Source of the DNA: Bernardetiaceae bacterium
Lineage (GTDB): Bacteria; Bacteroidota; Bacteroidia; Cytophagales; Bernardetiaceae
DNA: 64,000 nucleotides
Direction: 5' to 3'
Assembly: GCA_020832465.1 (NCBI GenBank)
Contig: JAFIER010000039.1
Span: forward strand, 1-64,000
The notes under the pieces are model-generated. The model searched no databases. It worked only from the letters and a program-made list of their open reading frames with translations, and had not been told where the DNA came from. Numbering within the stretch: position 1 is the stretch's first letter; each line of letters opens with the position of its first letter. Of this stretch, positions 3,891 to 32,018 are shown piece by piece. Position numbers and translations under genes: made by a program.

Positions 3891-4021
3891 AGAAATAACA
3901 TTTCTTTGAGGGTAGTGTATAACAAGTAATGCTTAGAACTAACAGTTCTTTGAGAACTGTTAGTTTTGAAAGACTTTGAGCATTACATCTTTAAGACTAC
4001 CTCTTTGAGAAATGTTATTTC
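3891..4021. repeat. AAATAACATTTCT palindrome split by an inserted 91-bp element
   Basis: The left arm AGAAATAACATTTCTTTGAG (3891-3910) and right arm AGAAATGTTATTTCT (up to 4021) are the two halves of a hairpin found intact elsewhere (32101-32131, 7546-7573). Between them sits family A copy 1, with the 8-base loop sequence TCTTTGAG duplicated on either side. Confidence 0.85.
3911..4001 (+). mobile_element. MITE family A, copy 1 (91 bp)
   Basis: A 91-bp non-coding element beginning GGTAGTGTATAACAAG and ending CTTTAAGACTACC. Its imperfect terminal inverted repeats match at 18 of 23 positions (6 perfect at the tip, then an AATGCT match inside). The centre is a CTAACAGTTCT/AGAACTGTTAG hairpin. 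It is flanked by TCTTTGAG at 3903-3910 and again at 4002-4009, a perfect 8-bp target duplication. It is identical base for base to the copies at 8456 (inverted) and 31928. There is no room for a transposase, so it must be mobilised in trans. Confidence 0.92.
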
Positions 4022-4233
4022 TAAGCTCTGACTTTATTAGCAATCTTTTACTGGGCAGGGGATTCGCCCTCCTCTTTTGATTTTTTTGTTTTTGTATTTA
4101 GGTTTTGAAGGACTGCAACTCGTTAGGTGAAAGCTCGGCAACAAAATAATCATTACCATACAAAAATAACGAGCGATTCTTTTGTTTATACTCATGGTAG
4201 TTTTTATTTGTAAAAAAATATAGAATACGCAGC

Positions 4234-4374
4234 CTATTTTTTGTCTCTTGCTTTGGTATGACTTTTATGTTTTGGTGTCCAAGGTTGCTTAGGTGCATAT
4301 ACGCAGCTACTAATGGTTACTGAAACAAAGAGCACAGCCAATAGGACAAGCAAATACTTTCGGATTTGTCGCAT
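4234..4374 (-). CDS. Small lipoprotein, 46 residues
   Basis: A tiny gene starting MRQIRKYLLVLLAVLFVS with a signal peptide ending in a lipobox (ISSC, Cys24). The mature part is only about 23 residues and contains APKQPWTP followed by a Lys/Arg-rich tail. It is a clear paralogue of the gene at 4511 (lipobox LASC, then APKQAWTP and a basic tail). The shared coding signature, rather than length, is the reason to call it real. It would be anchored in the periplasm or outer membrane by lipid. Function unknown. Confidence 0.7.
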   Translation of the reverse strand: MRQIRKYLLVLLAVLFVSVTISSCVYAPKQPWTPKHKSHTKARDKK

Positions 4375-4510
4375 AATTTTTTTGATTTTTAGATAAGCAA
4401 AAAAGATTTCAATTACAATCCACTATTGTGCATAGGCAAGTAAGTCTTTTATGCTGACTTATGTTTATGCTTTTGTGTAATCATAATCCTTCGATTCAAT
4501 TACAGAAATC

Positions 4511-4693
4511 TTACCAAACTTTACGGCTCATAACAGGTTTGTCATCTTTTGGCTTTGGATTTTTTTTACGTGCCATTTTACCTTTGCTGTTATTAGGAGT
4601 CCATGCTTGCTTAGGTGCATGTACGCATGAGGCGAGGCTTAGCAGCATGCCCGTAACGAATATAAGAAATAAGGCTCTGACTTTGACTTTCAT
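4511..4693 (-). CDS. Small lipoprotein, 60 residues
   Basis: Starts MKVKVRALFLIFVTGMLLSL, a signal peptide with lipobox LASC (Cys23). The mature peptide, about 38 residues, has APKQAWTP followed by a strongly basic stretch (KGKMARKKNPKPKDDK). It is paralogous to the 46-residue lipoprotein 136 bases further along the same strand, and the two may be a tandem duplication. It is divergent from adenine deaminase (ATG at 4829), with about 135 bases of shared promoter region. No known family recognised. Confidence 0.72.
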   Translation of the reverse strand: MKVKVRALFLIFVTGMLLSLASCVHAPKQAWTPNNSKGKMARKKNPKPKDDKPVMSRKVW

Positions 4694-4828
4694 ATCTTAA
4701 AATTATTGCTATATTTGTTTGAAAATAAAAAAAGGGAATAGATTGCTTTTAGATTTAGTTCTCGTAAAATCTTATTTTTCAAAAAAATAAGCCAAGATTT
4801 CACACAGAAATTAAAACCCAATCGCTTT

Positions 4829-6460
4829 ATGGTAATACGAACAAATGTAGTAAATATTGCAGAAAAGAGAATAATTCCTTCGGCTATTTTTATAGAGCAG
4901 GGAAAAATTGTCCGTATTGAAACTGCCGATGTAGAGGACTGCAAAGATTATGCCTTACCGGGCTTTATAGATGCACATGTTCACGTAGAGAGTTCGATGC
5001 TTGTACCTTTGGAGTTTGCAAAATTAGCCGTAAGGCACGGCACTGTAGCGACGGTCTCTGATCCGCACGAAATAGCCAATGTTTTGGGTAAATCAGGTGT
5101 TGATTATATGCTTTCTAATGCCGAGCAAGTACCGTTTCATTTTTTCTTTGGCGCTCCCTCTTGCGTACCTGCAACACCTTTTGAGACCTCTGGTGCAATC
5201 CTTCCCTTGGAAGATATAGAAGCTCTGCTCGATGATGATCGCATTCGCTATCTTTCAGAGATGATGAACTATCCGGCTGTTTTGAAACGTGAAGCCGAGG
5301 TTATGTCAAAAATCAAAGCAGCCTTGAGCCGTCGCAAAACTGTCGATGGACATGCGCCTGGTTTGCAGGGGGAAAAAGTACAAAAGTATGCCGATGCGGG
5401 TATTTATACCGACCACGAATGCTTTACCGAAGAGGAGGCTGTATCCAAACTTGCAGCAGGTATGAAAATTTTGATTAGAGAGGGTAGCGCTGCTAAAAAT
5501 TTTAAAGCACTCATACCGCTAATCAAACACTACGAAAACGAAATCATGTTTTGTTCTGATGATAAACACCCCGATGACCTGCTGCTTGGGCATATCAATA
5601 AGCTCGTCGCTAGAGGGGTAGCTGCGGGCTATGATTTATATAAACTGCTTAAAGCAGCCTGCCTTAATCCCATCAGACATTACGGACTCTCCGTAGGGCA
5701 ACTTCGAGAGGGCGATGATGCAGATTTTATTATTGTCGAAGACCTCCGAGATTTTGATGTTACTACAACTTATATACGCGGAGAGGCTGTATTCGCGAAC
5801 GCACAAGTGCACATGCCTTCGATAGATATTGCTATCAAAAATAAATTTGAGCTAAGACCCAAAAAATTAGAAGACTTTAGCCTCAAAGCAAAAACAGAAA
5901 ATATACAAGTTATAAAAGCCTTAGAAGGTGAGCTTATTACTGAATCTTTTACAACTACGGCTAAAATTTCGGAGGGTGGCGAAGCCATCAGCGATATATC
6001 TCGCGATTTGCTCAAAATCGCTGTTATCAATCGTTATGATAGTGATGCTGTGCCCGCTTTGGCTTTTATTCACGGTTTTGGGCTCAAGAAAGGTGCAATA
6101 GCCTCAACAGTAGCGCACGATTCGCATAATATCATTGCCATCGGTACGAATGATGAAGATTTGACAAGAGCCGTTAATTTGCTTATTGAAGCTAAGGGTG
6201 GGGTCGCTGCGGTGAGCGAAACTGAAGAAAAAATTTTACCTCTTCCCATTGCGGGTTTAATGTCTGACCAAAGTGGTGAATGGGTCGCTGCCCGTTACTG
6301 TGAGATAGATAAATTTGCCAAAACAGCATTAGGCGCAAGCCTACACGCACCTTTTATGACACTTTCTTTTATGGCACTGCTCGTTATTCCTTCGCTCAAA
6401 CTCAGCGATAAAGGACTTTTTGATGGCAGTAAGTTTGAGTTTACAGAGGTTTTTGTGTAG
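4829..6460 (+). CDS. ade: Adenine deaminase
   Basis: A 543-residue amidohydrolase that converts adenine to hypoxanthine and ammonia in purine salvage. The metal-binding HVHVESSM lies near residue 50, followed by VSDPHEIANV and the family-typical FFGAPSCVPATPFETSGA. The catalytic region has DGHAPG near residue 172, DHECF near 193 and SDDKHPDDLL near 247. The C-terminal domain has IASTVAHDSHNIIAIG, also diagnostic of Ade. Length is normal for the short form of the family. It is monocistronic, ending in a strong symmetrical hairpin at 6476. Confidence 0.95.
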   Translation: MVIRTNVVNIAEKRIIPSAIFIEQGKIVRIETADVEDCKDYALPGFIDAHVHVESSMLVPLEFAKLAVRHGTVATVSDPHEIANVLGKSGVDYMLSNAEQVPFHFFFGAPSCVPATPFETSGAILPLEDIEALLDDDRIRYLSEMMNYPAVLKREAEVMSKIKAALSRRKTVDGHAPGLQGEKVQKYADAGIYTDHECFTEEEAVSKLAAGMKILIREGSAAKNFKALIPLIKHYENEIMFCSDDKHPDDLLLGHINKLVARGVAAGYDLYKLLKAACLNPIRHYGLSVGQLREGDDADFIIVEDLRDFDVTTTYIRGEAVFANAQVHMPSIDIAIKNKFELRPKKLEDFSLKAKTENIQVIKALEGELITESFTTTAKISEGGEAISDISRDLLKIAVINRYDSDAVPALAFIHGFGLKKGAIASTVAHDSHNIIAIGTNDEDLTRAVNLLIEAKGGVAAVSETEEKILPLPIAGLMSDQSGEWVAARYCEIDKFAKTALGASLHAPFMTLSFMALLVIPSLKLSDKGLFDGSKFEFTEVFV

Positions 6461-6475
6461 GTATTGTCAGCAATA

Positions 6476-6516
6476 TTTTAGCACTAATAGTTCTGGCCGA
6501 ACTGTTAGTGCTAAAA
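6476..6516 (+). terminator. Bidirectional hairpin between ade and the J-protein gene
   Basis: TTTTAGCACTAA, then GTTC, a TGGCC loop, GAAC, and TTAGTGCTAAAA form a long near-perfect stem with T-rich and A-rich edges. It lies 15 bases past the ade stop and 26 bases before the stop of the convergent gene, so it can serve both. The stem is of the same GTTAGTGCT/AACAGTT class as the hairpin at 3834. Confidence 0.75.
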
Positions 6517-6542
6517 CTGAGTGGAAGTGAGTGTATCAATTT

Positions 6543-7442
6543 TTATTCTCTTTCACGGGCCAACTCTTCGAAGAGTTTTCTCTCTTTGTCAGATAGCTTT
6601 GTAGGGAGCTCTACTTCTATTTTAACGAATAAATCTCCCTGCAAATTAGGATTTTCATAATTAGGCATACCTTTATTAGGGATTTTAAAAATACGCCCGT
6701 TAGCAGTTTCAGACTTTATGGGAAAAGAGATTTTGCCTCCATCTATGGTTTCAACCTCTATTTTACCGCCCAATAGTGCTTTATATAGGGATACTTTTGC
6801 ATGTGTATGCAAATCATCACCTTCTCTTTTAAATTGATGGTGTGGGTCTATATGAATTTGCAAAAAAAGCTCATTATTATCGGTTTTGAGTTTTAGAATT
6901 TGACCTTCTTTGATGCCGGGCTTAATTTTAAGCCTAAGCCTTTTGTCATCAGCCTCTATAATACGACTTGTGCCTTTGTATGCTTCTGATAGCGAAATAT
7001 ATAACTCTCTGTCTGTTTTGGCACTGCTTTTATTTCCACTTACACGATTAGATACAGCTTCTCTTGCACCTCTTGTGATAGGATTATCCTTGACTTTATC
7101 AGCAATATTTTGAAAAATATCCGAAAAACGTTCGCCCAAAATATCCTTAAATTCAAAATCACGCGGGTTAAACCCACGTTTGCCCGCTTCGGGGTCGACA
7201 AAATCCCGTACTTTTTTCCAATTGTTATTGCTATCTATAAAGTCATATTTTTGTCTTTTTTTGGGGTCAGAGAGCACATCGTATGCTTCTGAAATATCCT
7301 TAAATCGTTTTTCAGCAATAAAATCATCAGGATTTCGGTCTGGGTGGTATTTTTTAGCGAGTTCGCGGTAAGCGCGTTTGATTTCTTCTGCTGAGGCTTT
7401 TTTCTTTACCCCCAATATTTTATAATAATCTTTGTATTGCAT
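6543..7442 (-). CDS. DnaJ-type co-chaperone (CbpA-like)
   Basis: A 299-residue J-domain protein that would stimulate DnaK ATP hydrolysis. The J domain covers residues 1-70 with the essential HPD at 33-35. There is no zinc-finger region, as in CbpA rather than DnaJ. The C-terminal substrate-binding part has [34 protein letters not shown] and the dimerisation end [13 protein letters not shown]. The start chosen is the ATG at 7442 ([12 protein letters not shown]). An in-frame ATG at 7517 would add 25 residues encoded by repeat family B and is rejected. Linker residues 90-150 are unusual in sequence. Confidence 0.9.
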
Positions 7443-7480
7443 ATTCTTATTAAAGTTCAAGTTTTTTGTCTCTGTTGATA

Positions 7481-7598
7481 TACCACTGTACATTTTTCCA
7501 TAGCGTGGGGTTTGCAAAGCCCATGCTATGGAAAAATGGGCTTAGCAATAACATTTCTTTGAGAAATGTTATTGCTGGCTAGCGAATGTCTAGTAGTA
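7481..7598. mobile_element. MITE-like repeat family B, copy 1
   Basis: Ends TACCACTGTACATT and AATGTCTAGTAGTA are imperfect inverted repeats. Inside are two hairpins: CCATAGCGTGGG...CCATGCTATGG, and GCAATAACATTTCTTTGAG...AAATGTTATTGC. The same architecture recurs at 18330, 32036, 56979 and 62311. No exact target duplication is seen here. It lies between the J-protein start and the acyltransferase stop. Confidence 0.75.
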
Positions 7599-7631
7599 GG
7601 GTCTATGTTAAACGTAAGTTTTAAGATTTTG

Positions 7632-8411
7632 TTACCTTTCTCTTGTCCAGTAGATATTTTCTTTGATAACTTTAGCTGGAATTCCTGCTATAATGCTTTG
7701 CGAAGGAAAAGTTCCGCTGGCAATACTTCCCGTAGCGACGATACTTCCTTCATTGATTTGCGTACCCTTTAATAGGGTAGCTTTTGCACCTATCCATACG
7801 TGGTCGCTGATGAGAATATTTTTAGCTTTATTGATACGCTCATGAGTTGTGCGGTCGTAAATGGCATGCGAATCGCCCGTGCGCAATGTAATTTCGTTTG
7901 AAAACATACAATCTAAACCTGTTTGAATCTGCGAACCCACTTCCGTAACGGCAAACTCAACGCCTTCTGTTGTGTTTTTATCGCCTATGCGTATGCAACC
8001 CTTATTGTCTTCTATCAACAGTAGGCTATTTTTGAGCCTTGAAAAACTGCCAATAAAGATTTGACAATCATTGGCTTTGATTTCTATCTCTACATTTTGT
8101 AAACCTACATCTTGGTCAATATGAATTTCGTTATTCGCACCTTTAATTTTCAGACTACCGCTCTTGATAAAGCTAATTTTACCCAAATAAATTTGATTTT
8201 GATTGCCTTGCACTTGGCACTTCCAACTTTGAATATTAAGCCCACCCTCTGATATAATTTTGTTGTTGATTCCTTGGCATACAATCGTACTATTTTGCAT
8301 CAAATCGCTATTGGCAAGATTGAAGGCATTATTTTGATGCAACTGCCATTGGTTGCTAAACCAAAATCTTTGTACCCATTTAGTACTTTTGATATAATGT
8401 TTGATTTGCAT
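7632..8411 (-). CDS. Left-handed beta-helix (hexapeptide) acyltransferase
   Basis: A 259-residue protein with the WbbJ/LacA-type acyltransferase end: HAIYDRTTHERIN, ILISDHVWIGAKATLLKGTQI and GSIVATGSIASGTFPSQSIIAGIPAKVI near residues 185-250 are hexapeptide turns. The preceding 160 residues are a long parallel-beta series (repeated N-x-I/V-x-I patterns). It probably acetylates a sugar in a surface glycan. The ATG at 8411 (MQIKHYIK) is chosen over a GTG 18 bases upstream. No related glycan genes adjoin it. Confidence 0.82.
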   Translation of the reverse strand: MQIKHYIKSTKWVQRFWFSNQWQLHQNNAFNLANSDLMQNSTIVCQGINNKIISEGGLNIQSWKCQVQGNQNQIYLGKISFIKSGSLKIKGANNEIHIDQDVGLQNVEIEIKANDCQIFIGSFSRLKNSLLLIEDNKGCIRIGDKNTTEGVEFAVTEVGSQIQTGLDCMFSNEITLRTGDSHAIYDRTTHERINKAKNILISDHVWIGAKATLLKGTQINEGSIVATGSIASGTFPSQSIIAGIPAKVIKENIYWTRER

Positions 8412-8455
8412 AAAATTTAAAATACGCACCTGAGAAAAAAATTAGATAAAAAATG

Positions 8456-8546
8456 GGTAGTCTTAAAGATGTAATGCTCAAAGTCTTTCAAAACTAACAG
8501 TTCTCAAAGAACTGTTAGTTCTAAGCATTACTTGTTATACACTACC
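8456..8546 (-). mobile_element. MITE family A, copy 2 (91 bp, inverted)
   Basis: The reverse complement is identical at all 91 positions to the copies at 3911 and 31928. It is flanked by AAAAAATG at 8448-8455 and 8547-8554, a perfect 8-bp target duplication different from those of the other copies. It lies 45 bases upstream of the acyltransferase start, so it may affect that promoter. Confidence 0.92.
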
Positions 8547-8580
8547 AAAAAATGCACCCATTTTTGTTTGTATAAGAATT

Positions 8581-8652
8581 AGAACTAACGGTTTGCGAAA
8601 ATCTGTTAGTTTTGAAGCTACCTAAGTCAATCGCCCCACTTGAGTTGCACCC
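8581..8652. repeat. Repeat family C, right-end fragment
   Basis: AGAACTAACGG...CTGTTAGTTTT hairpin core followed by GAAGCTACCTAAGTC and a degenerate right end, CCCACTTGAGTTGCACCC. This matches the right ends at 18050, 30532 and 25433. The expected left end is not recognisable. It ends 11 bases before the stop of the next gene. Confidence 0.65.
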
Positions 8653-8662
8653 TAATAAGTAC

Positions 8663-9607
8663 TTAACTCAAGGATTTGAGTAATCTTTGGGCAAAATAAC
8701 TATCATTTTCATTTTTATTTTTTTGCGTTTGATTGAGTCTTGCCACTTCCCGTATTCTTTTTTTAGGATCTTGCTCCTGCAAAGCAGTGATTAGCTCTCT
8801 ATAAAGCCTGTCGTTATCTATTTGTGTTAGAAACTCAAAATCGCCTGTTTTAATTCTATCTCTGCCCATTTCTTCACAAATTTCTAAATTTTCAGTAGGC
8901 AAATCTGCTTCTAAAGAAAGCCTATTATAGGCATCAAAAGCAATAATTCGGGCGAAATTCTCCGTAAGCCACAAATAAAAAGTCTGCTGATTATCAGTTA
9001 TAAGTTCATTAGGCAACTTGCGTATGACAGAAATCCCTAATAAGGCTAATGTAACGTGATTTTCGGCGTGCGTATAGAGATAGTTACGCAAAAAAGGATT
9101 TGTAGCCTCAGCATAACGTCCCGCCGGCATAACAAAGGGATTCCAGTAGGTATCAATAAAAATATGCGTAATATAGCTCTCTATGTAGTTGATAATATCA
9201 GGCTCAAGTGCCTTACTTAAGTGTGCCGGACGTACAAGTGTATCGCTTATTTCTAATTCTCTCGAGCTTGGTTCACCTGTATAAAGAAAGATTTCCCATA
9301 ATAACACACTCTCTTTGATACTGAAATAAATGACAAAAAAGTTTTCTTTTTTCCAAGGATTCAATGACAATATAGATTGGTTATTAGGGCTATAACAAAT
9401 AGCCATTAAATTAGGAGCTATGAAACGGTAGAGCGAAAGTTGCTTATAATCTGTTAGCCAGTTGGCTAAATCGTGTAAAAATACATCGAGCTCAAAATCG
9501 CTTGGTAAACCAAAACATTTAGCCTGCTTTTGCAGATAAGCCATCAAGTTTTCATATTTTTCCACTTCAGAATCGCTCAACTTCTTATTGGATATAATAT
9601 TCTTCAT
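8663..9607 (-). CDS. Hypothetical protein, 314 residues
   Basis: Not recognised. No signal peptide or membrane segment. The N-terminus is hydrophilic and charged, the middle (residues 60-200) mixed alpha/beta with many aromatics (NPWKKENFFVIYFSIKES), and the C-terminus basic and Asn/Lys-rich. FDAYNRLSLEADLPTENLE around residue 225 is a possible helical segment. Coding quality is good: one long frame, typical codon use and a plausible ATG start. It lies alone between an acyltransferase and dtd, with repeat family C right after its stop. Confidence 0.7.
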   Translation of the reverse strand: MKNIISNKKLSDSEVEKYENLMAYLQKQAKCFGLPSDFELDVFLHDLANWLTDYKQLSLYRFIAPNLMAICYSPNNQSILSLNPWKKENFFVIYFSIKESVLLWEIFLYTGEPSSRELEISDTLVRPAHLSKALEPDIINYIESYITHIFIDTYWNPFVMPAGRYAEATNPFLRNYLYTHAENHVTLALLGISVIRKLPNELITDNQQTFYLWLTENFARIIAFDAYNRLSLEADLPTENLEICEEMGRDRIKTGDFEFLTQIDNDRLYRELITALQEQDPKKRIREVARLNQTQKNKNENDSYFAQRLLKSLS

Positions 9608-9683
9608 AATAGCAAATTATCTGTATGTGGGGTAAGTAGTTGTAGAAAAAATAACTGGATTTCTGACCTCTTATTGTACATTT

Positions 9684-10145: not shown

Positions 10146-10187
10146 AATAAAACATTAAGACTAAATTATTTCAAGTTAGTAGCGATT

Positions 10188-10220
10188 AGAAATAACATTT
10201 TTGGTAGCAATGTCATTTCT
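10188..10220. repeat. Isolated AAATAACATTT-type palindrome
   Basis: AGAAATAACA and TGTCATTTCT form imperfect arms around a TTTTTGGTAGCAA loop. This is a solitary copy of the repeat-core hairpin between dtd and aroE, without recognisable family B or C ends. Confidence 0.5.
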
Positions 10221-11062: not shown

Positions 11063-11068
11063 TTATTT

Positions 11069-12634: not shown

Positions 12635-15600
12635 ATGGCATTATTTCAAAAAAGTATAATTCAACGATTCACAAAAAAACAAAGTACTGAAAAGCTCGAG
12701 GAGGCGTATGAGCGTTTTAAAGAAAATTTTATGACCGAAGAGCGGCAGCAGAATATCCTTAAAGCCAAAGAACAGCAATATCAAGAAGGCTTTTTGAAGG
12801 ATTTGTTTGTTGATGTATTAGGTTATACGCTTTTTCCACAAACGCCACACAACCTCATCACAGAGCTCAAGAACCCCAATGATGCGCGAAGAGTAGATGG
12901 CGCAGTCATACGTGAGGAGCAGGCATTAGCCGTGATTGAACTCAAAGATACACGCACGAAGGTACTCAAAATGGTCGAGCCGCAGGCTTTTGGCTACAAA
13001 TATCAGCACCCCAACTGCCGCTATGTCATCACCTCCAATTTTCAAGAACTTTGGTTTTATGTAGATAATGCCTACGAACATATCGAGTTTGATTTGTTTG
13101 ATATGAGCCTCGAACGCTTCGCACTTTTTTATACCATCTTGCATGCCGATAATCTGCTCGCCGATGTGCCTGTGGAAATGAAAAAAGAATCTATCGTGCG
13201 TGAAGAAGAGCTTACCCTCGAGTTTTATAATGATTATCAAGGGTTTAAGGATATGTTGTATCTCAACATTGCACAGTATAACCTGCAATACGATAAACTC
13301 ATGCTTTTTGAAAAAACGCAGAGAATCATCGACCGCATTATTTTCATGTGTTTTGCATCAGACAAAAACCTACTCCCACCCAACCTTATCCCGACCGTTA
13401 TCGAGGAGTGGAAAAGAAGGCTCGAAGAAGGCGAAATTACAACCCTTTACACAGCATTTAAACGCCATTTTAGACTTATCAATCGGGGCTTTAAAAGTCG
13501 CAAATACGATATTTATGGCTACAATGGCGGTCTTTTTGCCCAAGACGAAGTTTTAGAAAACCTCAAAATTAGCGATGAGGTATTGGAAAATAACTGCCTT
13601 TGGCTCACGAAATACGACTTTGATACTGAAATTGACATCAACGTACTCGGTCATATTTTTGAGCATAGTTTGAGCGATTTGGAGCAGAAAAAGCAGGAAT
13701 TGCTCGAAGATTTGGAAGCTATTAAAGCGGGAAACCAGCCCAAAAATGCTGGTAAACGCAAAGAAGACGGCATTTTTTATACGCCCATTTACGTTACCCA
13801 ATATATGGTCGATGAAACCGTCGGAAAGCTTTGCCAAGCACAAAAAGAGGCATTGCAAATCGAAATCAAAGACATTGACTGGGACGATGAAGACCAAAAA
13901 CAAACGCTACTCGAGCGCATACAAGCCTACGAAAAGTGGATTGCCAAACTCTACGTCCTCGACCCCGCTTGCGGTTCAGGGGCATTCTTAAACCAAGTCT
14001 TGAGCTTTTTTACTTACGAGTACGACTGGATTGATAGCATCAAAATGGGCATTGACCCCGAGACTTTTGGTAGAAAAGAATGGAAAACCAAAATCGAACT
14101 CGGCAATATTTTCGAAGCCCCACAGCCGCGCCTCGAAAAGCCTAAAGACGAAAAACCTACCGTACATAAAGTGTTGGAAAACAATGTTTTTGGCGTGGAT
14201 TTGAATATGGAAAGCGTCTCTATTACCAAACTTTCGCTTTGGCTCAAGACTGCCCAGATGCGCCAGAAACTCAATAATCTTTCCGATAACATCAAAATCG
14301 GCAACTCCCTCGTCGATGACACCGAGATAGAACCTCGTGCTTTTGATTGGAAGGCTGAGTTTCCTCAAGTTTTTACAAGCGAAAATTCAGGATTTTCCGT
14401 TGTGATTGGAAATCCGCCGTATGTGAGACAGGAGCGATTGGCAGAAAAGATGAAAGTTTACTTCAAAGACCGCTATCCTAATGTATATAGCGGTGTGGCG
14501 GATTTGTATGTGTATTTTTATGCGCGGGGCTTAGAACTCCTACTCGCAGATGGAATTTTGGGTTATATCACACCGAACAAATGGTTCAAAACAAAATACG
14601 GTTTCAAACTTCGCCAGTTGCTCAAGCCGTATGAAATTTTGCACGTCGTAGATTTTTTTGAGCTTCCTGTATTCGAAGATGCCGCTACCGAACCTCAAAT
14701 TATCACACTTTACAACCGTAAAAGTAATAAAGACTTTGAGTACTATCCCGTAACCAAAGAATTGATTGCTATCGAGGGCATCGAGAAGTTTGCTAAATAT
14801 TTGGAGGAGAAGTATATCATTGATAAATCCCTTTTGCAAGATAGCGAGTGGATTCTTACCGATAGGCAGCAACAACTTATTTTGCACAAAATACAGAGTG
14901 AAAAAACGCTGAGCAGCGATGTGCTCAAAATTGTATCTTTAAAAGAGTACACTAATGATAGCATACATTATGGAGTTAAGACAGGCTTAAATAAGGCTTT
15001 TATCATTGACCGCAAAACAAGAGAAGAGCTCATTCGCAAAGACGCGCGGAGTGCCGAACTTATCAAGCCCTATCTTCACGGTATAGACATCAAAAAATGG
15101 CATATCGAGAATGCTAAGGAGTATTTTCTTATTTTCACAAGGCGAGGTACAGATATAGAGCGTTATCCCGTTATAAAAAAATATCTCCTCCAATTTCGTG
15201 AAGATTTAGAACCCAAGGAAAACCGTTATCAAACGAATGGTCGCAAACCTGGTAGTTATAATTGGTTTGAGTTGCAGGATACAATCAGTTACTACGAAAG
15301 ATTCGAGCAGCCCAAACTTATGTATATACACACGGCTCTGAATCATTATTTTTACTACGATACAGAGGGCTATTATACGAATAATTCGGGTTATATTATT
15401 GCACAAGCAGATTGGTTTTTGTGTGCTTTTCTGAACTCTAAATTATTTGAGTTTTTTAAACGGTTAAAATTTGTAGCCTACGGCGACCCACACCGTAAAG
15501 GTCGTAATAAGTTAGATTACAACAAGATGATACAAGTGCCCGTGCCTGTATTGAAAGAAGGTAAAAAAGCTTATTTTGAAGAGAAAATCAAGGCATTGCA

Positions 15601-15925
15601 AACATGGTCATCGAGCTGGATAAAAGCTAAGAGTACATTTTTGAAAGTAGTATTGGCAGAATTTGATATAGAAAAACCAAGTCGCAAGCTCAAGAATTGG
15701 TATAAATTAGATTGGGCGAAGTTCCAAAAAGAGTTAGAAAAAAAACAGGTTCGTTTTCGTGTCAAACAAAAACTCGAGTGGGTAGAAGATTTTGAGAGCG
15801 AAAAGCAGAAATTACGAGACCTGGAGAAAGCAATTCATGAAACCGAGCAAGAAGTCGACTATGCTATCTACGCACTCTACCAACTCACCCCCGCAGAAAT
15901 TGCCATTGTAGAGGCGCAGGCTTAG
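12635..15925 (+). CDS. Type IIG (Eco57I-like) restriction-modification fusion protein
   Basis: A 1096-residue single-chain restriction enzyme and N6-adenine methyltransferase. A PD-(D/E)XK-type nuclease lies at the N-terminus: RRVDGAVI near residue 88, then LAVIELKDTR near 101, a D...ExK pattern. A helical linker follows. SAM motif I is LDPACGSGAFLNQVL near 442, and catalytic motif IV is VIGNPPYVRQ near 590. The last 350 residues would be the target-recognition domain, ending LTPAEIAIVEAQA. Size and domain order match Eco57I-type enzymes. It is followed 32 bases later by a stand-alone methyltransferase sharing near-identical DNA blocks. Confidence 0.88.
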   Translation: MALFQKSIIQRFTKKQSTEKLEEAYERFKENFMTEERQQNILKAKEQQYQEGFLKDLFVDVLGYTLFPQTPHNLITELKNPNDARRVDGAVIREEQALAVIELKDTRTKVLKMVEPQAFGYKYQHPNCRYVITSNFQELWFYVDNAYEHIEFDLFDMSLERFALFYTILHADNLLADVPVEMKKESIVREEELTLEFYNDYQGFKDMLYLNIAQYNLQYDKLMLFEKTQRIIDRIIFMCFASDKNLLPPNLIPTVIEEWKRRLEEGEITTLYTAFKRHFRLINRGFKSRKYDIYGYNGGLFAQDEVLENLKISDEVLENNCLWLTKYDFDTEIDINVLGHIFEHSLSDLEQKKQELLEDLEAIKAGNQPKNAGKRKEDGIFYTPIYVTQYMVDETVGKLCQAQKEALQIEIKDIDWDDEDQKQTLLERIQAYEKWIAKLYVLDPACGSGAFLNQVLSFFTYEYDWIDSIKMGIDPETFGRKEWKTKIELGNIFEAPQPRLEKPKDEKPTVHKVLENNVFGVDLNMESVSITKLSLWLKTAQMRQKLNNLSDNIKIGNSLVDDTEIEPRAFDWKAEFPQVFTSENSGFSVVIGNPPYVRQERLAEKMKVYFKDRYPNVYSGVADLYVYFYARGLELLLADGILGYITPNKWFKTKYGFKLRQLLKPYEILHVVDFFELPVFEDAATEPQIITLYNRKSNKDFEYYPVTKELIAIEGIEKFAKYLEEKYIIDKSLLQDSEWILTDRQQQLILHKIQSEKTLSSDVLKIVSLKEYTNDSIHYGVKTGLNKAFIIDRKTREELIRKDARSAELIKPYLHGIDIKKWHIENAKEYFLIFTRRGTDIERYPVIKKYLLQFREDLEPKENRYQTNGRKPGSYNWFELQDTISYYERFEQPKLMYIHTALNHYFYYDTEGYYTNNSGYIIAQADWFLCAFLNSKLFEFFKRLKFVAYGDPHRKGRNKLDYNKMIQVPVPVLKEGKKAYFEEKIKALQTWSSSWIKAKSTFLKVVLAEFDIEKPSRKLKNWYKLDWAKFQKELEKKQVRFRVKQKLEWVEDFESEKQKLRDLEKAIHETEQEVDYAIYALYQLTPAEIAIVEAQA

Positions 15926-15957
15926 GCAGTTTTTGAGGTAAAATAAAAAGATAGCTT

Positions 15958-17868
15958 ATGGAAATAAAAAAACAATATCCAAGTAGCTTAGAAGCAAGTA
16001 AGCGTAAAGAAGAGGGTGTGTTTTATAGTACCGAAGAGGTGGCGAGTTTTATGGCAAAGGTAACGATAGATTTATTGCTGGCGAACTCGTCAGAGCGATT
16101 TCGCACTTTGCAAAATATACGTATTTTAGATGCCTGCTGTGGCGACGGTGTATTTTTATTGGCTTGTTTTGATTATCTAAAAAAACTTTACAATACAAAT
16201 TATCCAACCTTTCAAAATGCAGCTCATTATATTGTTTTGCATAATCTTTTTGGTGTAGATTTAGATGCTGATGCGGTAGAATTGTGTAGAGAAAATTTAT
16301 ATAAAAAAAGCGGTTTGTTTTCCGATAACATCAAAATCGGTAACTCCCTTGTCGATGACCCCGAGATAGACCCTCGTGCTTTTGATTGGAAGGCTGAGTT
16401 TCCTCAAGTTTTTACAAGCGAAAATTCAGGTTTTTCCGTTGTGATTGGAAATCCGCCGTATGTGAGTGCCAATAATATGAATTTTGCTATGCGTCAGTAT
16501 TTTAACAAATCAGAGACTTACAAACTTTTACAAGGTAAGTGGGATTTGTTCATACCTTTTTTTGAGCGAGGTTTTAATATGCTGCTGCCTGAAGGAGTGC
16601 TCTCTTTTATTGTGCCTTATGGCATGCTCAATCAATCTTTTGCTACACCCCTACGGGAGTATATTCTAAAAAATCATTCGCTTCGTGCGATTACAGATTT
16701 GCATAAAGTCAAGGTTTTTACTGATGCCACCGTACCGACGTGTATCCCTGTGGTTTTCAAAAAACAGAATATGTTTCAAAATGTCGAGATTAAGCATCAC
16801 CGTAAAAATGAAAAAAACGAAGATGAGTTTTTTGTAAGTCATCAAATTGCGATAAAAAAATATTGGCAGACAGAAAACTTTATGTTTCGCACCGAAAAGC
16901 TCGATGATAGCTTCGATGTACTACAAAAAATTAAACATTGCGGTACACAGCTCGGCGAATTATTTTACGTCTCTACGGGCGCTGAAATTCACGGCAAGGA
17001 ACAGCGAATTGAAGGTAAATTGATTAGTGGACATAGCAAGTTTGATATACTAAAAACCGAAAGAGAAGAGGGGCATAAACCCTATATTGAAGGTTCGGCA
17101 ATCCCAAAATCGAGAATTACTGGACCTTACTGTTATCCTGAAATTGAGCATTATCTTGACTACGACAGCAATTTTTCACGCATGCGCTCACCCAAGTTTA
17201 AGGAGCTATTTGATAGTCCTAAAGTTATTGTACGCGGTAATTCGGGCTTAATAGGTCTTTTAGCTACTTATGATAATGAAGGTTTATATACTTCTCATGG
17301 TGCAATCTTAATCATATCAAAAGCGGATTTGCCTGTCAGACACAAACAATATAAGACGAAGGGACGTAAAGATTTGAAGTTTCTCTTGAGTCTTTTGAAT
17401 AGTCGTTTAATGCAGTTTTACTATAAAAACACTTATGGTGGATTTATAGTAGTTTATCCAAGCTACGTAAAAGCCCTCCCCATTCCACTTGATATATCAG
17501 CGGAGATTATCGAGGAACTTTCGTCGCGGGTAGAAATATTATTAGCCTCTCATAAAAGTTTGGCAGTATTGAATCGTCAATTTTTGCAGGTTTTGCGTTC
17601 GCAGTTTGGTTTGACAAAAGCTTCTCGCAAATTGGAGCACTGGTATGAATTAGAATGGGCTGATTTTACTAATGAGATGAAGAAGGCTAAAAGTCCTATT
17701 TCTGCAAAAAAAGAGTTTGAGTGGGTCAGTATTTTTGAAGAAAAGCGCACCGAAGCACAAAATTATTTGAAAAAAACAGCCTATTTAAAAGGTGAAATTG
17801 ACCAAATAGTTTATCAAATCTACCAACTCACCCCCGCAGAAATTGCCATTGTAGAGGCGCAGGCTTAG
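15958..17868 (+). CDS. Companion N6-adenine DNA methyltransferase (Eco57I-like)
   Basis: A 636-residue methyltransferase without nuclease domain. Motif I is ILDACCGDGVFLLAC near residue 55, a variant of the DPACGSGAF seen in its neighbour. Motif IV is VIGNPPYVSAN near 162. The C-terminal half is a recognition domain different from that of the upstream protein, apart from the last 16 residues. It probably protects host DNA at the same target, as in Eco57I, where a separate methylase accompanies the fusion enzyme. Residues 121-166 and the C-terminus are near-identical to the upstream gene at DNA level, suggesting gene conversion. Confidence 0.85.
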   Translation: MEIKKQYPSSLEASKRKEEGVFYSTEEVASFMAKVTIDLLLANSSERFRTLQNIRILDACCGDGVFLLACFDYLKKLYNTNYPTFQNAAHYIVLHNLFGVDLDADAVELCRENLYKKSGLFSDNIKIGNSLVDDPEIDPRAFDWKAEFPQVFTSENSGFSVVIGNPPYVSANNMNFAMRQYFNKSETYKLLQGKWDLFIPFFERGFNMLLPEGVLSFIVPYGMLNQSFATPLREYILKNHSLRAITDLHKVKVFTDATVPTCIPVVFKKQNMFQNVEIKHHRKNEKNEDEFFVSHQIAIKKYWQTENFMFRTEKLDDSFDVLQKIKHCGTQLGELFYVSTGAEIHGKEQRIEGKLISGHSKFDILKTEREEGHKPYIEGSAIPKSRITGPYCYPEIEHYLDYDSNFSRMRSPKFKELFDSPKVIVRGNSGLIGLLATYDNEGLYTSHGAILIISKADLPVRHKQYKTKGRKDLKFLLSLLNSRLMQFYYKNTYGGFIVVYPSYVKALPIPLDISAEIIEELSSRVEILLASHKSLAVLNRQFLQVLRSQFGLTKASRKLEHWYELEWADFTNEMKKAKSPISAKKEFEWVSIFEEKRTEAQNYLKKTAYLKGEIDQIVYQIYQLTPAEIAIVEAQA

Positions 17869-17951
17869 GCAGTTACAATTTGTTTTTCAAAGGTTACTTC
17901 TTTTCCATTATTGGTTATATCAAATAGATTTACTACATTTGCAATCGCAAG

Positions 17952-18050
17952 GGGTATAAGACGGCGTTGCTAAATGTGCCCAGAAATAACATTTCTCGAA
18001 ATGTTATTTCTGAAATTATCTAAGTCGTTTTACCAACTTGACGTACACCC
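17952..18050. mobile_element. MITE-like repeat family C, copy with AAATAACATTTCT core (99 bp)
   Basis: Left end GGGTATAAGACGGCGTTGCT and right end (reverse complement) GGGTGTACGTCAAGTTGGTA are inverted. The core is AGAAATAACATTTC/GAAATGTTATTTCT. Flanks ATCGCAAG and ATCGGAGG agree at 6 of 8 positions, a possibly decayed 8-bp target duplication. It lies about 80 bases after the methyltransferase stop. Confidence 0.75.
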
Positions 18051-18329: not shown

Positions 18330-18429
18330 CATACTACTATACATTTTTGTTTGCATAGCGTGGGGTTTGCAAACCCTACGCAATGCTCAAAGAAATGTTA
18401 TTTTTGGAGGGAAAATGTCTAGTAGTATG
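18330..18429. mobile_element. MITE-like repeat family B, copy 2 (about 100 bp)
   Basis: Ends CATACTACTATACATT and AATGTCTAGTAGTATG are inverted repeats around GCATAGCGTGGGGTTTGC and a partly deleted AAATGTTATTT core. ACTTTAT directly precedes the left end and recurs two bases after the right end, a candidate 7-bp duplication. It lies 67 bases upstream of the plsC-like start. The 280 bases between this and the family C copy show nothing recognisable. Confidence 0.72.
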
Positions 18430-21671: not shown

Positions 21672-22248
21672 GACCATTTTCAGTTTAAAATAAAAAATAA
21701 AAATTGATATTAAAACAATATCATAACAATACCAATATGAACGAGCCTCTCCGAAAAAGGTTGCAAAAAAAAAAGATTTTTTTTAGTCGACTGTACGTAA
21801 AAGCAAGCGGGTGTACGACAGCTTTGTTAAATTAACCCCAGAAACGACATTAATCATCAAGAACTAACAGTTTTTCAAAAACTGTTAGTTCTGAAACTAT
21901 TTAAGCCGATTTACCAACTTGGCGTACAGCCAAGCAAGCTCATGCTCAAATAAAATGACCAACAGTTATGTATAAAAAAATGCTGTAAACCTCACTTTTA
22001 TACGGTATTCAGAAAAAAACTAATTTTTTTTTGCTAATATTTTGAAGTTTAGAAACTTTTTATCTATGTTTGTGTTTATAGTATGCAAGCATAACAATAT
22101 TTATTTCAAAAGTTTGAAGTAAGAAGTTGAAATCGTAGGTAGTCTAAATGTGGCGATATTTTCGCTTTTTTTCATACCTAAATAGTATGCAAGCATCATA
22201 AAAAAAGAGTTAAAACACTTAATTTTCAAAATCAAAACATAAAACAAG
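21672..22248. other. Gene-free stretch holding a family C element
   Basis: No convincing gene. A family C element lies at 21809-21931. The remaining sequence is A/T-rich with runs of A and T and should contain the promoters of the divergent SPFH and acyl-CoA dehydrogenase genes. Confidence 0.5.
21809..21931. mobile_element. MITE-like repeat family C, complete copy with 8-bp target duplication (123 bp)
   Basis: Left end GGGTGTACGACAGCTTTG and right end (reverse complement) GGCTGTACGCCAAGTTGGTA. The core hairpin is AGAACTAACAGTTTTT/AAAAACTGTTAGTTCT, preceded by a relic AGAAACGACATT of the other core type. AAGCAAGC lies at 21801-21808 and again at 21932-21939, a perfect 8-bp direct duplication that fixes the element boundaries. 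Confidence 0.88.
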
Positions 22249-25368: not shown

Positions 25369-25433
25369 ACATTTCTTAAAGAAATGTTATTTCTGAAACT
25401 ATCTAAGCCAATTTACTAACTTGGCGTACACCC
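25369..25433. repeat. Repeat family C, right-end copy with AAATAACATTTCT core
   Basis: A CGACATTTCTT/AAGAAATG hairpin, then TTATTTCTGAAACTATCTAAGCC and the conserved right end ACTAACTTGGCGTACACCC. The left end is missing. It ends 18 bases before the rarA stop. Confidence 0.65.
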
Positions 25434-25450
25434 GCATAAGATAAGCAATA

Positions 25451-26728: not shown

Positions 26729-26914
26729 AAAAAGCAGGTTACAATTATTTTTTGTAAATTACGGATTCTCAAAATCAAAAGAACTAATTTTTTAGCAATT
26801 ATCAAACGAAAAAAGTTAGTTTGATGTTAGTTGTTCATATTCTTTCATATTCTTTGCTCGGACAAAGATTTGAAGTTTGAAAAAAATCCAAAACTAAACG
26901 TTTTATATAAATAT

Positions 26915-29900
26915 ATGCAGCCTCAAAAAGATTCTAATCCTGTGCTCGAGGAGTTGCGTGCTTATAAGCGCAAACACTATAAAAACCAAATCATAAAAGG
27001 TAGCCTTTTGGCAGTATCGACCTTTCTTACAGCTTTTGCCTTAGTCAATATGTTGGAATACTTCGGCAACTTTAACTCTGCTTTACGCGCCGTACTCTTC
27101 TATGGCTTTTTAAGTGTGAGTGCTTTTTCGCTTTTATATTGGGTGCTGCGCCCTGCTTACCATCTTCTTGATGAGAAAAAGCAAATTAGCAACAGCGAAG
27201 CTGCTAAGCGCATCGGGAGTTTTTTCCCCGAAGTGAGCGACCGCCTGCTCAATATTTTGCAATTACAAGAACTGGCGCAAAGTCATCAATCAGACTTGGT
27301 GCGTGCGGGTCTGAATCAAAAAACTTCTCAAATATCTCACGTGCGCTTTACCCAAGCGATTGATTATAAGAAAAACCGTAAATATTTGCGTTTTTTGATT
27401 TTCCCTCTTATCGGAATTGGTTTGTTGGCACTTATTATTCCAAATCTTTTTGTAGAGAGTACAACGAGACTGATTCGTTATAATGAATCTTTCGAACCTA
27501 CCATGCCTTTTTCTTTTGCCATACAAAATAGCGAAATGACGGCATTCAAAAACGAAGACTTTAACCTAAGGCTTAGCCTTGAGGGCGAAAGTATCCCTGC
27601 CGAGATTTTTCTCTTTACAGAAAATGGAAGACGCATCAAACTCCTCAAAAACGACGAAGGACTTTTTGCTTATGATTTCAAAAACGTACAGCGAGACTTT
27701 AAGTTTTCTTTTGAAGCAGCTGGTTTTCACTCTTCTGAAAAAAAGGTAAGCGTACTCGAGCGTCCTAATTTGAGTAATTTCAATATTTATCTCTCTTACC
27801 CTGCTTATACAGGCAAGAAAGATGAACGTTTGGAAAATACAGGTAATCTTACCGTACCCGCAGGTACAAAAGTGCTTTGGAATCTCAAAACAAGAGAAAC
27901 CGAAAGTATGCAAATTAGCCTGCAAGAACCCGAAACCATTATTATTGAGGCTAAAAATGCTGGAGACGGACTTTTTGAAGCCGAAAAAAGAGCCATGCAG
28001 TCCACGCCTTACGAAATAAAACTTACAAACAAATATAGCGATAACAAAGAAAAAATTGCATATTTTATGCAAGTTATCCCTGATGCACACCCTAAAGTTA
28101 CGCTCAGCCAAATGCAAGATTCCGTACTTTACGACTATGTGGTAGTCGGCGGAACAGCTTCTGATGACTATGGTATTTCAAAGTTACAACTCAAATACCG
28201 CATTTTTAAAGAGGGTAATAAAGATAAAAACCCGCAGTATAAAACCGTTGCACTTCCCCATAATAAAGCGGCTATTAATCAGCAGTACTTCCACCAACTC
28301 GATGTAAAAGAATTGAATTTACAGCCGGGTGATAAACTCGAATACTTTGTCGAAGTTTGGGATAACGACGGCGTAAACGGTAGTAAAAGTAGCCGTACGG
28401 GTATGTATGCTTTCGAAGTCCCCTCTAAAAAAGCACTAAGAGAAGAGGTAAAACAGAGCAGTGAAAATACAGAAAAGCAAATTGATAAAGCCCACGAAGA
28501 AGCGAAAGATTTGCAGTCTGAAATTCAAAAAATGCAAGATAAACTCAAAGGCAAAAAAGAACTCACTTGGGAGGACAAAAAGCAACTCGAAGAGCTACTC
28601 AAAAAACACGAAAAGCTCAAAAAAGAAATCGAGAATATGCAGTCTGAAAACAAAAACCTCAACAAAAAGCAAGAAAGATTTAGTGAGGAAGAAAAACGCA
28701 TTGCCGAAAAAGCAGAGCAGTTGCAAAAACTCATGGACGACCTGCTCGATGACGAGATGAAAGCACTTTACGAAAAACTCAACGAACTCCTCGACGAAAA
28801 TGCACCGCCAGAGGATATCCAAGAAATATTAGACAAATTACAAAAGAAAGAAGACAACCTCGAGAAAGAACTCGATCGTGCCCTCGAGATGTTTAAGCAA
28901 CTGCAATTTGATAAAAAACTCGAAGACCTCGCTAAACAACTCGAAGAACTTGCGCAAAAGCAAGAACAACTCGCCGAAGAAAACAAAGATGCAAAAGACG
29001 ATAAAAATAAGGCGAAAGACGACAAAAATGACAAAGGCAAAGACGAGGATAGCAAAGAGCAAGAGGCAAAGCAAGACGATAGCAATGCTAAAGAGGCAGA
29101 CCAAGAAAATCAAGAGTCGGACAGCAGCAAAGACCAAAAGCAGGATAACAAATCCGATGAAAACTCCACTGATAGCCAAGATGCAAAAGAAAAGCAAGAA
29201 GAGCTAAACAAAGAGTTTGAGGACATCAAAGAACAGCTCGAAGAGCTTGATAAAATGAACGAGGACATGAAAAAGCCGCGTGATATGGACGATATGAAAG
29301 AAAAGCAAGAAGACATCGAGCAAGATATGCAAGATGCCTCCGAGCAAATGGAGCAAAATCAGCCACAAAAAGCCTCTGAATCGCAGCAAAAAGCAGGAGA
29401 AAAAATGAAGCAAATGGCTATGCAAATGCAGCAAATGATGCAAAGTGCACAAATGGAACAAATGATGGAGGACTATAACACCCTGCGTCAAATCCTTGAA
29501 AATTTGCTCACACTCTCTTTCGACCAAGAGGACGTAATGCGTGGCTTTAGAGAAGTAAAGCAAAGAGACCCTCGTTTTATTGATTTGAGCCAAAAACAAC
29601 TCAAACTCGCCGACGATGCCAAAATCGTAGAGGATAGTTTGCGTGCACTCGCTTCAAGGGTATTCCAACTCGAGGCTTTTGTTATGCGCGAACTCACTGA
29701 TATGAACGACTACATGGGGCAAGCAACCTTTCAAATCAAAGAACGCCGACCTGATATCGCCGCCAGTAAGCAGCAGCGTGCCATGACCTCTATGAATAAC
29801 CTCGCCCTGATGCTCGATGACGTAATGGATCAAATGCAACAGCAAATGGGAATGGCTATGCCCGGACAGCAAATGTCCAATATGCCAAAAGGAAAACCTA

Positions 29901-30415
29901 ACCTCGGACAAATGCAGCAGTCCTTGAACGAACAAATTTCCGAACTCAAAAAATCAGGAAAATCAGGACGTAAAATGTCCGAAGATTTAGCTAAAATCGC
30001 TGCACAGCAAGAAATGATACGTAGAGCATTAGAAAAAGCAGGTAAAGATAAAGGCAACAAAGACGGCGGAAAAGAAGGCGACGGCGGTAGCTACGGAGAC
30101 CTCATCAAAGAAATGGAAAAAACCGAAGAAGACCTCGTCAATAAACGCCTTACACAAGAACTTATAGAACGCCAACAGCAAATTCTGACACGATTGCTCG
30201 AGTCTGAAAAAGCCGAACGCGAGCGCGAACTCGATAAAGAGCGTGAAGCCGAGCAAGTCAAAGACCAAAAAAGACGCAAAGCGCCAAGTGAGTTTTCAGA
30301 ATATTTTAAGCTCAAAGAACGACAAGTCGAACTGCTCAAAACTATTCCGCCTGCGCTAAGCCCATATTACAAGCAAAAAGTCAATGAGTACTTTGAAAAA
30401 CTCGACGAACTTTAA
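26915..30415 (+). CDS. DUF4175-type large membrane protein with coiled coil
   Basis: A 1166-residue protein. Two hydrophobic segments near residues 25-75 and one near 160 anchor the N-terminus. A beta-rich extracytoplasmic part follows (APTEIF-like repeats, YPAYTGKKDERL, DYVVVGGTASDDYGISKLQLKY). Residues about 515-960 are a long charged coiled coil and low-complexity region rich in K, E, D and Q. The C-terminus is again helical (LTQELIERQQQILTRLLES). This is the DUF4175 layout found in Bacteroidota, function unsettled. The start at 26915 (MQPQKDSNP) is chosen over an upstream ATG at 26831 because the extra residues do not look coding. Confidence 0.8.
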   Translation: MQPQKDSNPVLEELRAYKRKHYKNQIIKGSLLAVSTFLTAFALVNMLEYFGNFNSALRAVLFYGFLSVSAFSLLYWVLRPAYHLLDEKKQISNSEAAKRIGSFFPEVSDRLLNILQLQELAQSHQSDLVRAGLNQKTSQISHVRFTQAIDYKKNRKYLRFLIFPLIGIGLLALIIPNLFVESTTRLIRYNESFEPTMPFSFAIQNSEMTAFKNEDFNLRLSLEGESIPAEIFLFTENGRRIKLLKNDEGLFAYDFKNVQRDFKFSFEAAGFHSSEKKVSVLERPNLSNFNIYLSYPAYTGKKDERLENTGNLTVPAGTKVLWNLKTRETESMQISLQEPETIIIEAKNAGDGLFEAEKRAMQSTPYEIKLTNKYSDNKEKIAYFMQVIPDAHPKVTLSQMQDSVLYDYVVVGGTASDDYGISKLQLKYRIFKEGNKDKNPQYKTVALPHNKAAINQQYFHQLDVKELNLQPGDKLEYFVEVWDNDGVNGSKSSRTGMYAFEVPSKKALREEVKQSSENTEKQIDKAHEEAKDLQSEIQKMQDKLKGKKELTWEDKKQLEELLKKHEKLKKEIENMQSENKNLNKKQERFSEEEKRIAEKAEQLQKLMDDLLDDEMKALYEKLNELLDENAPPEDIQEILDKLQKKEDNLEKELDRALEMFKQLQFDKKLEDLAKQLEELAQKQEQLAEENKDAKDDKNKAKDDKNDKGKDEDSKEQEAKQDDSNAKEADQENQESDSSKDQKQDNKSDENSTDSQDAKEKQEELNKEFEDIKEQLEELDKMNEDMKKPRDMDDMKEKQEDIEQDMQDASEQMEQNQPQKASESQQKAGEKMKQMAMQMQQMMQSAQMEQMMEDYNTLRQILENLLTLSFDQEDVMRGFREVKQRDPRFIDLSQKQLKLADDAKIVEDSLRALASRVFQLEAFVMRELTDMNDYMGQATFQIKERRPDIAASKQQRAMTSMNNLALMLDDVMDQMQQQMGMAMPGQQMSNMPKGKPNLGQMQQSLNEQISELKKSGKSGRKMSEDLAKIAAQQEMIRRALEKAGKDKGNKDGGKEGDGGSYGDLIKEMEKTEEDLVNKRLTQELIERQQQILTRLLESEKAERERELDKEREAEQVKDQKRRKAPSEFSEYFKLKERQVELLKTIPPALSPYYKQKVNEYFEKLDEL

Positions 30416-30425
30416 AATTTATAGC

Positions 30426-30532
30426 TGTAGCCCGAAGCTCCAGCTTCGGAAAAGCATCAAGAACTAACAGTTTTCAAAAAACTGTTAGTTCCCGATGCTA
30501 TCTAAGTCGATTTGCCCACTTGACATACACCC
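30426..30532. repeat. Repeat family C right end joined to a GAAGCTC-type hairpin
   Basis: CTGTAGCCCGAAGCTCCAGC (30426 onward), GCATCAAGAACTAACAGTTTT/AAAACTGTTAGTTCCCGATGC-type core arms, then the right end CACTTGACATACACCC. The GCCCGAAGCTCC motif also occurs inside the element at 37660. The end abuts the helicase leader. A GTG at 30533 would give a spurious longer helicase start. Confidence 0.65.
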
Positions 30533-30568
30533 GTGGGGTTTACTTATCTATTCATTAAATCTATATTC

Positions 30569-31891
30569 ATGACCTTTTCAGATTTCAAACTCAATAAGCA
30601 ACTTCTCAACGCTATCGAAGAAGCGGGCTATACCACACCTACGCCCATTCAAAAAAAGGCAATTCCACTGGTCTTAGCGGGGCACGATATTATCGGAATT
30701 GCACAAACTGGTACGGGCAAAACCGCAGCTTTTGCATTGCCTATGCTTATGAAAATCAAATACGCACAAGGTACACAACCCCGTGGACTTATCCTTGCGC
30801 CTACACGTGAGTTGGTGATGCAAATCCAAGAAGAGGTTAAAAAGTTTTCTATTTATACAGATTTGAGAAGCGTAGCCCTTTATGGAGGTCCGAGTGTGCG
30901 CACCCAAGGCGAAGCCATAAGTGCAGGTATAGATATTGTCGTAGCTACACCGCAGAGATTTTGGGATATATACAAACAAGGCTATATCGATAGCCGTAAA
31001 ATCCAAATGATGGTGATGGACGAAGCAGATAGAATGATGGATATGGGATTCATGCCCCAAATTCGACGAATTTTAGAAATCGTACCCGCAAAAAAGCGAC
31101 AGAATATGTTATTCTCGGCAACCATGCCCGCTAAAGTACTCGCACTTGCTGATGAGTTTTTAAAATTCCCTGAAAGAATAGAAATTAGCCCGCAGGCAAC
31201 CGCCGCCACTACGGTCAAGCAAATGCGTTATGCCGTTCCGAATATCAAAAGCAAAATAAACCTCCTTGCTTATTTGCTCCAAGACAAAGAAAAATTTAGT
31301 AGGGTCATGGTTTTTGCCAAAACTAAAACTACGGCAAACAATATTTATAAGTTTTTGGTGCGTAAAGTGGATACTGATGTACGAGTCATTCATGCAAACA
31401 AAGACCAAAATGCACGTATCAATGCTATGAAGGATTTTAAAGCTGGGAATATTCGTATCTTGGTTACTACAGATATTGCCGCTCGTGGCATTGATATTAG
31501 TATGGTTACGCAAGTGATTAACTTCGATGTGCCACATCAGTCAGAGGATTATGTACACCGTATTGGGCGCACGGGGCGCGCCGAGCAACTTGGCGAAGCC
31601 ATTACATTTTTTAATATTGCTGAAGATCCTCTTATCAAAAGCATCGAACAGCTCATCAGAGAAGAGATTCCAGTGCTTCCTTATCCCGAAGAAGTGCCGC
31701 TCGAACCCACTCCTTTCGTCGAACAACAAGAAATGCTACGTGCTTTGGATATGCGTAAGCAAAGAGAAGACCCCGAGTACAAAGGTGCATTTCACGAAAA
31801 AAAGAAATACGTGCATAAAAGACCAAAACCCAAAGCTAAAATCAAAGGAGGAGGGCAAAGCAACAAAAATAGAAAACACAATCGTAAATAA
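30569..31891 (+). CDS. DEAD-box ATP-dependent RNA helicase
   Basis: A 440-residue RNA helicase of the RhlE/CsdA-like group, unwinding structured RNA during ribosome assembly or cold growth. Motif Q is TTPTPIQKKAIP, motif I AQTGTGKTAAF near residue 47, Ia PTRELVMQ, motif II MDEADRMMDMGF near 152, motif III SATMPAK, and motif VI HRIGRTGR near 331. The C-terminal tail is basic (KKKYVHKRPKPKAKIKGGG), probably for RNA contact. The start ATG at 30569 is chosen over a GTG inside the repeat end. Confidence 0.93.
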   Translation: MTFSDFKLNKQLLNAIEEAGYTTPTPIQKKAIPLVLAGHDIIGIAQTGTGKTAAFALPMLMKIKYAQGTQPRGLILAPTRELVMQIQEEVKKFSIYTDLRSVALYGGPSVRTQGEAISAGIDIVVATPQRFWDIYKQGYIDSRKIQMMVMDEADRMMDMGFMPQIRRILEIVPAKKRQNMLFSATMPAKVLALADEFLKFPERIEISPQATAATTVKQMRYAVPNIKSKINLLAYLLQDKEKFSRVMVFAKTKTTANNIYKFLVRKVDTDVRVIHANKDQNARINAMKDFKAGNIRILVTTDIAARGIDISMVTQVINFDVPHQSEDYVHRIGRTGRAEQLGEAITFFNIAEDPLIKSIEQLIREEIPVLPYPEEVPLEPTPFVEQQEMLRALDMRKQREDPEYKGAFHEKKKYVHKRPKPKAKIKGGGQSNKNRKHNRK

Positions 31892-31927
31892 GCACCATAC
31901 TAATAGAGATTATCCCCTTTATTTTTC

Positions 31928-32018
31928 GGTAGTGTATAACAAGTAATGCTTAGAACTAACAGTTCTTTGAGAACTGTTAGTTTTGAAAGACTTTGAGCAT
32001 TACATCTTTAAGACTACC
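31928..32018 (+). mobile_element. MITE family A, copy 3 (91 bp)
   Basis: Identical at all 91 positions to the copies at 3911 and 8456. It is flanked by TATTTTTC at 31920-31927 and 32019-32026, the third different perfect 8-bp duplication. It lies 36 bases after the helicase stop, immediately before a family B/C chimeric repeat. Confidence 0.92.

Follow-up and report, generated by a model that had tools for sequence, protein, structure and literature searches.

The 91-bp repeats in the window

The window, a stretch of 64,000 nucleotides, belongs to contig C256 of a 4.6 Mb draft genome in 289 contigs. It contains three copies of a short repeat, one of them inverted, each bordered by its own 8-bp direct repeat. 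The features of these copies are listed below by position.

3903–3910: target duplication TCTTTGAG, left side of copy 1
3911–4001, forward strand: copy 1 of the 91-bp MITE, equal to the genome consensus; its insertion point is inside a host palindrome
3911–3933, forward strand: IS1-type left end GGTAGTGTATAACAAGTAATGCT, 23–24 bases identical to the IS1-family left end in relatives; also present in copies 2 and 3
3936–3966, strand not assigned: core palindrome (hairpin), common to a dispersed genome-wide family
3979–4001, reverse strand: IS1-type right end GGTAGTCTTAAAGATGTAATGCT, 22 of 23 bases shared with the right end at L164, a locus of a Microscillaceae MAG, which abuts the InsB 3' end there; also present in copies 2 and 3
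4002–4009: target duplication TCTTTGAG, right side of copy 1
8448–8455: target duplication AAAAAATG, left side of copy 2
8456–8546, reverse strand: copy 2 of the 91-bp MITE, inverted, equal to the genome consensus
8547–8554: target duplication AAAAAATG, right side of copy 2
31920–31927: target duplication TATTTTTC, left side of copy 3
31928–32018, forward strand: copy 3 of the 91-bp MITE, equal to the genome consensus
32019–32026: target duplication TATTTTTC, right side of copy 3

What the original prediction had described here was confirmed when the sequence was read again. The three copies agree at all 91 bases, their inverted end repeats have 18 of 23 positions in common, and a script check found that the flanking 8-mers TCTTTGAG, AAAAAATG and TATTTTTC differ from one another while each is an exact direct repeat. 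The whole 91-bp strand is predicted to fold into a long hairpin (z = −5.7 relative to shuffled sequences), and the hairpin previously noted in the middle, AACTAACAGTTCT-TTG-AGAACTGTTAGTT, is the strongest portion of this fold. However, this hairpin is not diagnostic of the MITE, as at least 15 related palindromes occur in the window alone.

Genome-wide copies and target sites

A pattern scan of the whole draft genome, the search proposed with the original prediction, located 95 copies of the 91-mer with at most three substitutions. The majority are exact (76), while 14 have one substitution, three have two and two have three. The same scan of the draft with the reversed pattern as a control returned no copies, and the 95 copies are therefore not due to chance. 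Five copies are on contig C256. Among the variants, the members of a small subgroup are all altered at positions 74 and 76, and other copies differ in length, measuring about 73, 95 or 114 bp.

Flanks were retrieved for nearly all copies, and 91 distinct copies were analyzed. A perfect 8-bp target duplication is found in 74 of these 91, and the 8-bp target repeats of the distinct copies define the consensus NAAWWTTN. When flanks were re-paired at random, only about 1 in 90 matched perfectly, mostly self-pairs. The duplicated 8-mers are 76% A+T, compared to 61% for the window. Joined flanks are open over at least 180 codons at 10 of 68 sites, versus 75% of random window positions; thus, the insertions are mostly intergenic.

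Empty sites were sought by joining the flanks, less one duplication, and comparing the result with retrieved DNA of the same genome. At least six copies, including the window copy at 3911, are nested in other repeats whose uninterrupted counterparts elsewhere in the genome carry the 8-mer once. The target of copy 1 is the host palindrome AGAAATAACATTTCTTTGAGAAATGTTATTTCT, which is 95% identical over 42 bases to its empty counterpart at 62361–62402. Further clear cases are L014 (94% over 79 bases), L028, L065, L086 and L089. For window copies 2 and 3, no uninterrupted counterpart was found in the retrieved DNA.

The element is short and without coding capacity, has terminal inverted repeats, generates target duplications of constant length, and occurs in many dispersed copies with related empty sites, the features looked for in a MITE. 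The recent movement proposed earlier is supported by the proportion of identical copies, the perfect duplications, and the empty sites within the genome. Judged from these sequence features, the 91-bp repeats appear to be genuine mobile mini-elements that represent a recent burst of an IS1-family MITE.

The distribution in relatives points in the same direction. Copies of the 91-bp element are absent from the 10 genomes of the same family that were searched, where nothing beyond short matches was detected, most of them to the palindrome in G003. Relatives carrying the same copies at the same places, which would have spoken against recent movement, were thus not encountered, and no sign emerged that the flanking 8-mers were pre-existing repeats. 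Among 391 genomes of the order, short IS1-ended elements number 87 in this genome and occur singly in G004, a genome of the same family (110 bp, with a perfect 8-bp duplication), and in G122 (100 bp, with no perfect duplication). These two single elements resemble the MITE in their IS1-type ends and very short, gene-free interior, but differ in copy number, in interior sequence, and in having no palindromic core. Short elements with IS1 ends have arisen on more than one occasion, but in the sampled genomes amplification of one is confined to this lineage.

Origin of the ends and the transposase partner

An IS1-like origin had been offered only as a guess, and the ends bear it out. A scan for the left tip, using a 22-base query against a collection of named genomes from which the own genome may have been left out, identified three places, which are spread over two MAGs and lie outside the own genus, and a search of relatives added one more genome, G023. 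At L131, L132 (Microscillaceae MAG) and L103/L165 (G023), all in Cytophagales, the tip is identical over 23–24 bases, and behind it, starting about 70–85 bp from the tip, lies a gene that encodes an InsA-like zinc-ribbon protein. An InsB-like gene follows at L132 and L103. The proteins encoded behind the left tip match PF03400 (2e-20 and 9e-20), as well as PF03811, and score above the cut-off of the NCBIfam model NF033558 (IS1). At L164, located in the same Microscillaceae MAG, a right end that shares 22 of 23 bases with the MITE right end runs straight into the 3' end of that same InsB gene. Both ends of IS1 type are found together in elements of 1022 bp (G087), 1044 bp (G141) and 961 bp (G124), and the 1044-bp element is flanked by the perfect 8-bp duplication AAAATTTC.

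The two ends of the MITE are unequal and match the IS1 left and right ends, respectively, and so correspond to the opposite ends of a single type of IS1 element. With its ends like those of elements that encode IS1 transposases, the 91-bp repeat is very probably a non-autonomous IS1-family MITE mobilized by a transposase in trans. The MITE also shares with the IS1 family (InsA/InsB, PF03400, NF033558) the GGT start, imperfect terminal repeats of about 23 bp, and AT-rich 8-bp duplications. In contrast to an autonomous IS1, it has no InsA or InsB gene within it and is 91 bp long rather than the approximately 0.96–1.04 kb seen in relatives; no sequence common to the MITE and these elements was found beyond the ends, and the interior is unrelated. 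The IS1595 family was also considered and rejected, as no match to DDE_Tnp_IS1595 (PF12762) was found in the own draft genome.

We infer that IS1-type left and right transposase-binding ends were joined, with no gene between them, around a palindromic core that would have been captured from a pre-existing host repeat. A transposase of the InsA-InsB type, acting in trans, would recognize both ends and cut or copy the element, which would insert at AT-rich, mostly intergenic sites with duplication of 8 bp. Recent multiplication, confined to this lineage, produced the approximately 95 copies, and the transposase gene would later have been lost or be hidden in an assembly gap.

The search for an insertion sequence with matching ends succeeded in other Cytophagales families, but not in the own draft genome, and the IS1-type partner is thus represented solely outside the own family. 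In the own draft, a PF03400 search gave no real match (a single weak one, below the cut-off, is in an unrelated gene region), a protein search for InsB found none, and the pattern of an IS1 end with a non-MITE continuation recovered only a deleted MITE. Thus, the absence of an IS1 transposase extends beyond the window to the whole draft, and a partner acting in trans is what we infer. An autonomous partner in the same genome is usual for MITEs, although not strictly required, and orphan MITEs are possible.

The partner could have been lost, transient, or left unassembled, and we place loss or transience somewhat above an assembly gap. A lost or transient partner (e.g. on a plasmid, or a short-lived IS1) that left an orphan MITE population is slightly favored, as the assembly is 99.3% complete and contains no IS1. 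IS1 is also sporadic in relatives: the query has matches in 49 of 148 genomes, in some of them solely to its non-IS1 tail. However, a draft cannot show the absence of a repeat, and 76 identical copies imply recent activity. An autonomous IS1 that is still resident and missing from the draft as a collapsed repeat is plausible but less likely. The genome is fragmented into 289 contigs, and contigs C27, C36, C94 and C132 stop 24–26 bases into an element end. Contigs C27 (left end, L043) and C36 (right end, L054) both break off 24 bases in and share the flanking 8-mer TAAAATTT, as would the two sides of one insertion with its middle missing, which could be of any length; this makes them a candidate site for a hidden IS1. 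However, some 30 pairings of this kind were possible, and the MITE itself also breaks contigs elsewhere (C117, C131, C230 and C219), so that the missing middle may be no more than a MITE; nor was an IS1 fragment found anywhere in the draft. We did not accept the contigs stopping at 24–26 bases as proof of a hidden insertion sequence, since others stop at 53, 78, 84 and 88 bases.

Explanations that dispense with the IS1 ends are much weaker. The core palindrome is found at about 830 sites of this genome, those in MITE copies among them, and is far more common than the MITE; spread driven by this core through REP/RAYT-like hairpin mobility could be envisaged. REP/BIME and ERIC repeats likewise comprise many short intergenic palindromes; unlike them, the 91-bp element has transposon ends and makes target duplications. 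To our knowledge, REP/RAYT transposition does not make 8-bp duplications. The fixed IS1-type ends and 8-bp duplications of the MITE copies contradict a core-driven spread, which survives only for solo palindromes and is very improbable for the MITE. Moreover, the genome has three genes for Y1 (RAYT-type) transposases, and no such palindrome is present at any of their loci; assignment to the REP/RAYT class, where palindromes are found beside a Y1 gene, was rejected. An assembly artefact, or ancient repeats held identical by gene conversion, is hardly credible. A contig-end copy on C2 does repeat the left flank of another copy, and some contig ends are chimeric. However, the 74 perfect duplications are at different sites and some empty sites are nested, target duplications are not created by gene conversion, and the relatives are without the sequence.

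The preferred IS1-family element can be compared with MITEAba12; like MITEs generally, both are short and lack genes, are bounded by two terminal repeats, duplicate their targets at AT-rich sites and occur in many near-identical copies. MITEAba12 has a co-resident parent, ISAba12, with 9-bp duplications and 16-bp ends (PMC6382973), whereas the IS1-type parent of the 91-bp MITE was not found in its genome. According to the same paper, type II MITEs originate when end sequences converge at random (PMC6382973). What is new here would be an IS1-family MITE of an already known kind, amplified in this lineage. A limited literature search found no paper describing an IS1-derived MITE in Bacteroidota. 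The MITE provides a clean example of a recent burst in that phylum (Cytophagales), with both ends assignable to the IS1 family through relatives, and the apparent absence of the transposase offers a sharp test of whether MITEs can outlive their partner.

The core palindrome and other repeats

Outside the MITE, the core palindrome takes two matched forms, AATAACATTT (67 of 97) and ACTAACAGTT (19 of 97). In family relatives it is found eight times in G003, from a second genus, and no more than once per genome in the nine others. The palindromes in the window are all intergenic, and 14 of 15 adjoin at least one gene 3' end. A classical terminator was rejected, as no T-run follows the palindrome in the collected copies, and an Rfam search of the window returned only a tRNA. 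Some palindromes are solo, outside any repeat type.

Two further repeats were observed in the window. The first represents a second MITE-like family, which is older, measures about 100 or 122 bp and has ends CATACTACTRTACATT; it holds many of the palindromes and also carries another palindrome, CCATAGCGTGGGGTTTGCAAACCCCACGCTATGG. Flanks read by eye have 9-bp direct repeats at L070, L082, L084, L090 and L097, all outside the window. The other, a third repeat, consists of the palindrome followed by GAAACTATCTAAGCCGATTTACCAACTTGGCGTACACCC and terminates in ...GCGTACACCC.

6481–6511, 7545–7575, 21861–21891, 30461–30491, 33940–33970, 57051–57081, 62109–62139, 62369–62399 and others: dispersed 31–33-bp palindromes (GAAATAACATTTC.. 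and GAACTAACAGTTC..)
7479–7600, 18330–18429, ~32037–32167, 56982–57106 and 62304–62442: second family, window copies
L097 10636–10737 and L084 430–551: second family, copies outside the window
8588–8652, 17986–18050, 21867–21931, 25369–25433 and 30468–30532: third repeat, window copies

A palindrome common to several repeat types is the odd part of this system and one that merits further study. One tentative idea, which we regard as rather unlikely, is that a single host palindrome was adopted as a functional cargo and forms the core of two or more MITE families whose ends are unrelated (IS1-type ends in the family with 8-bp duplications, CATACTACT ends in the family with 9-bp duplications), and perhaps of the third repeat. 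Such a cargo might be a hairpin that ends transcription or binds a protein and thereby renders intergenic insertions harmless, which would explain why the MITEs amplified so far.

The window also contains direct repeats that are almost identical and are separated by about 2 kb, at 14280–14427 and 16319–16466, and at 15876–15931 and 17819–17874. They are located in the neighboring genes 12635–15925 and 15958–17868, which suggests recent duplication or conversion.
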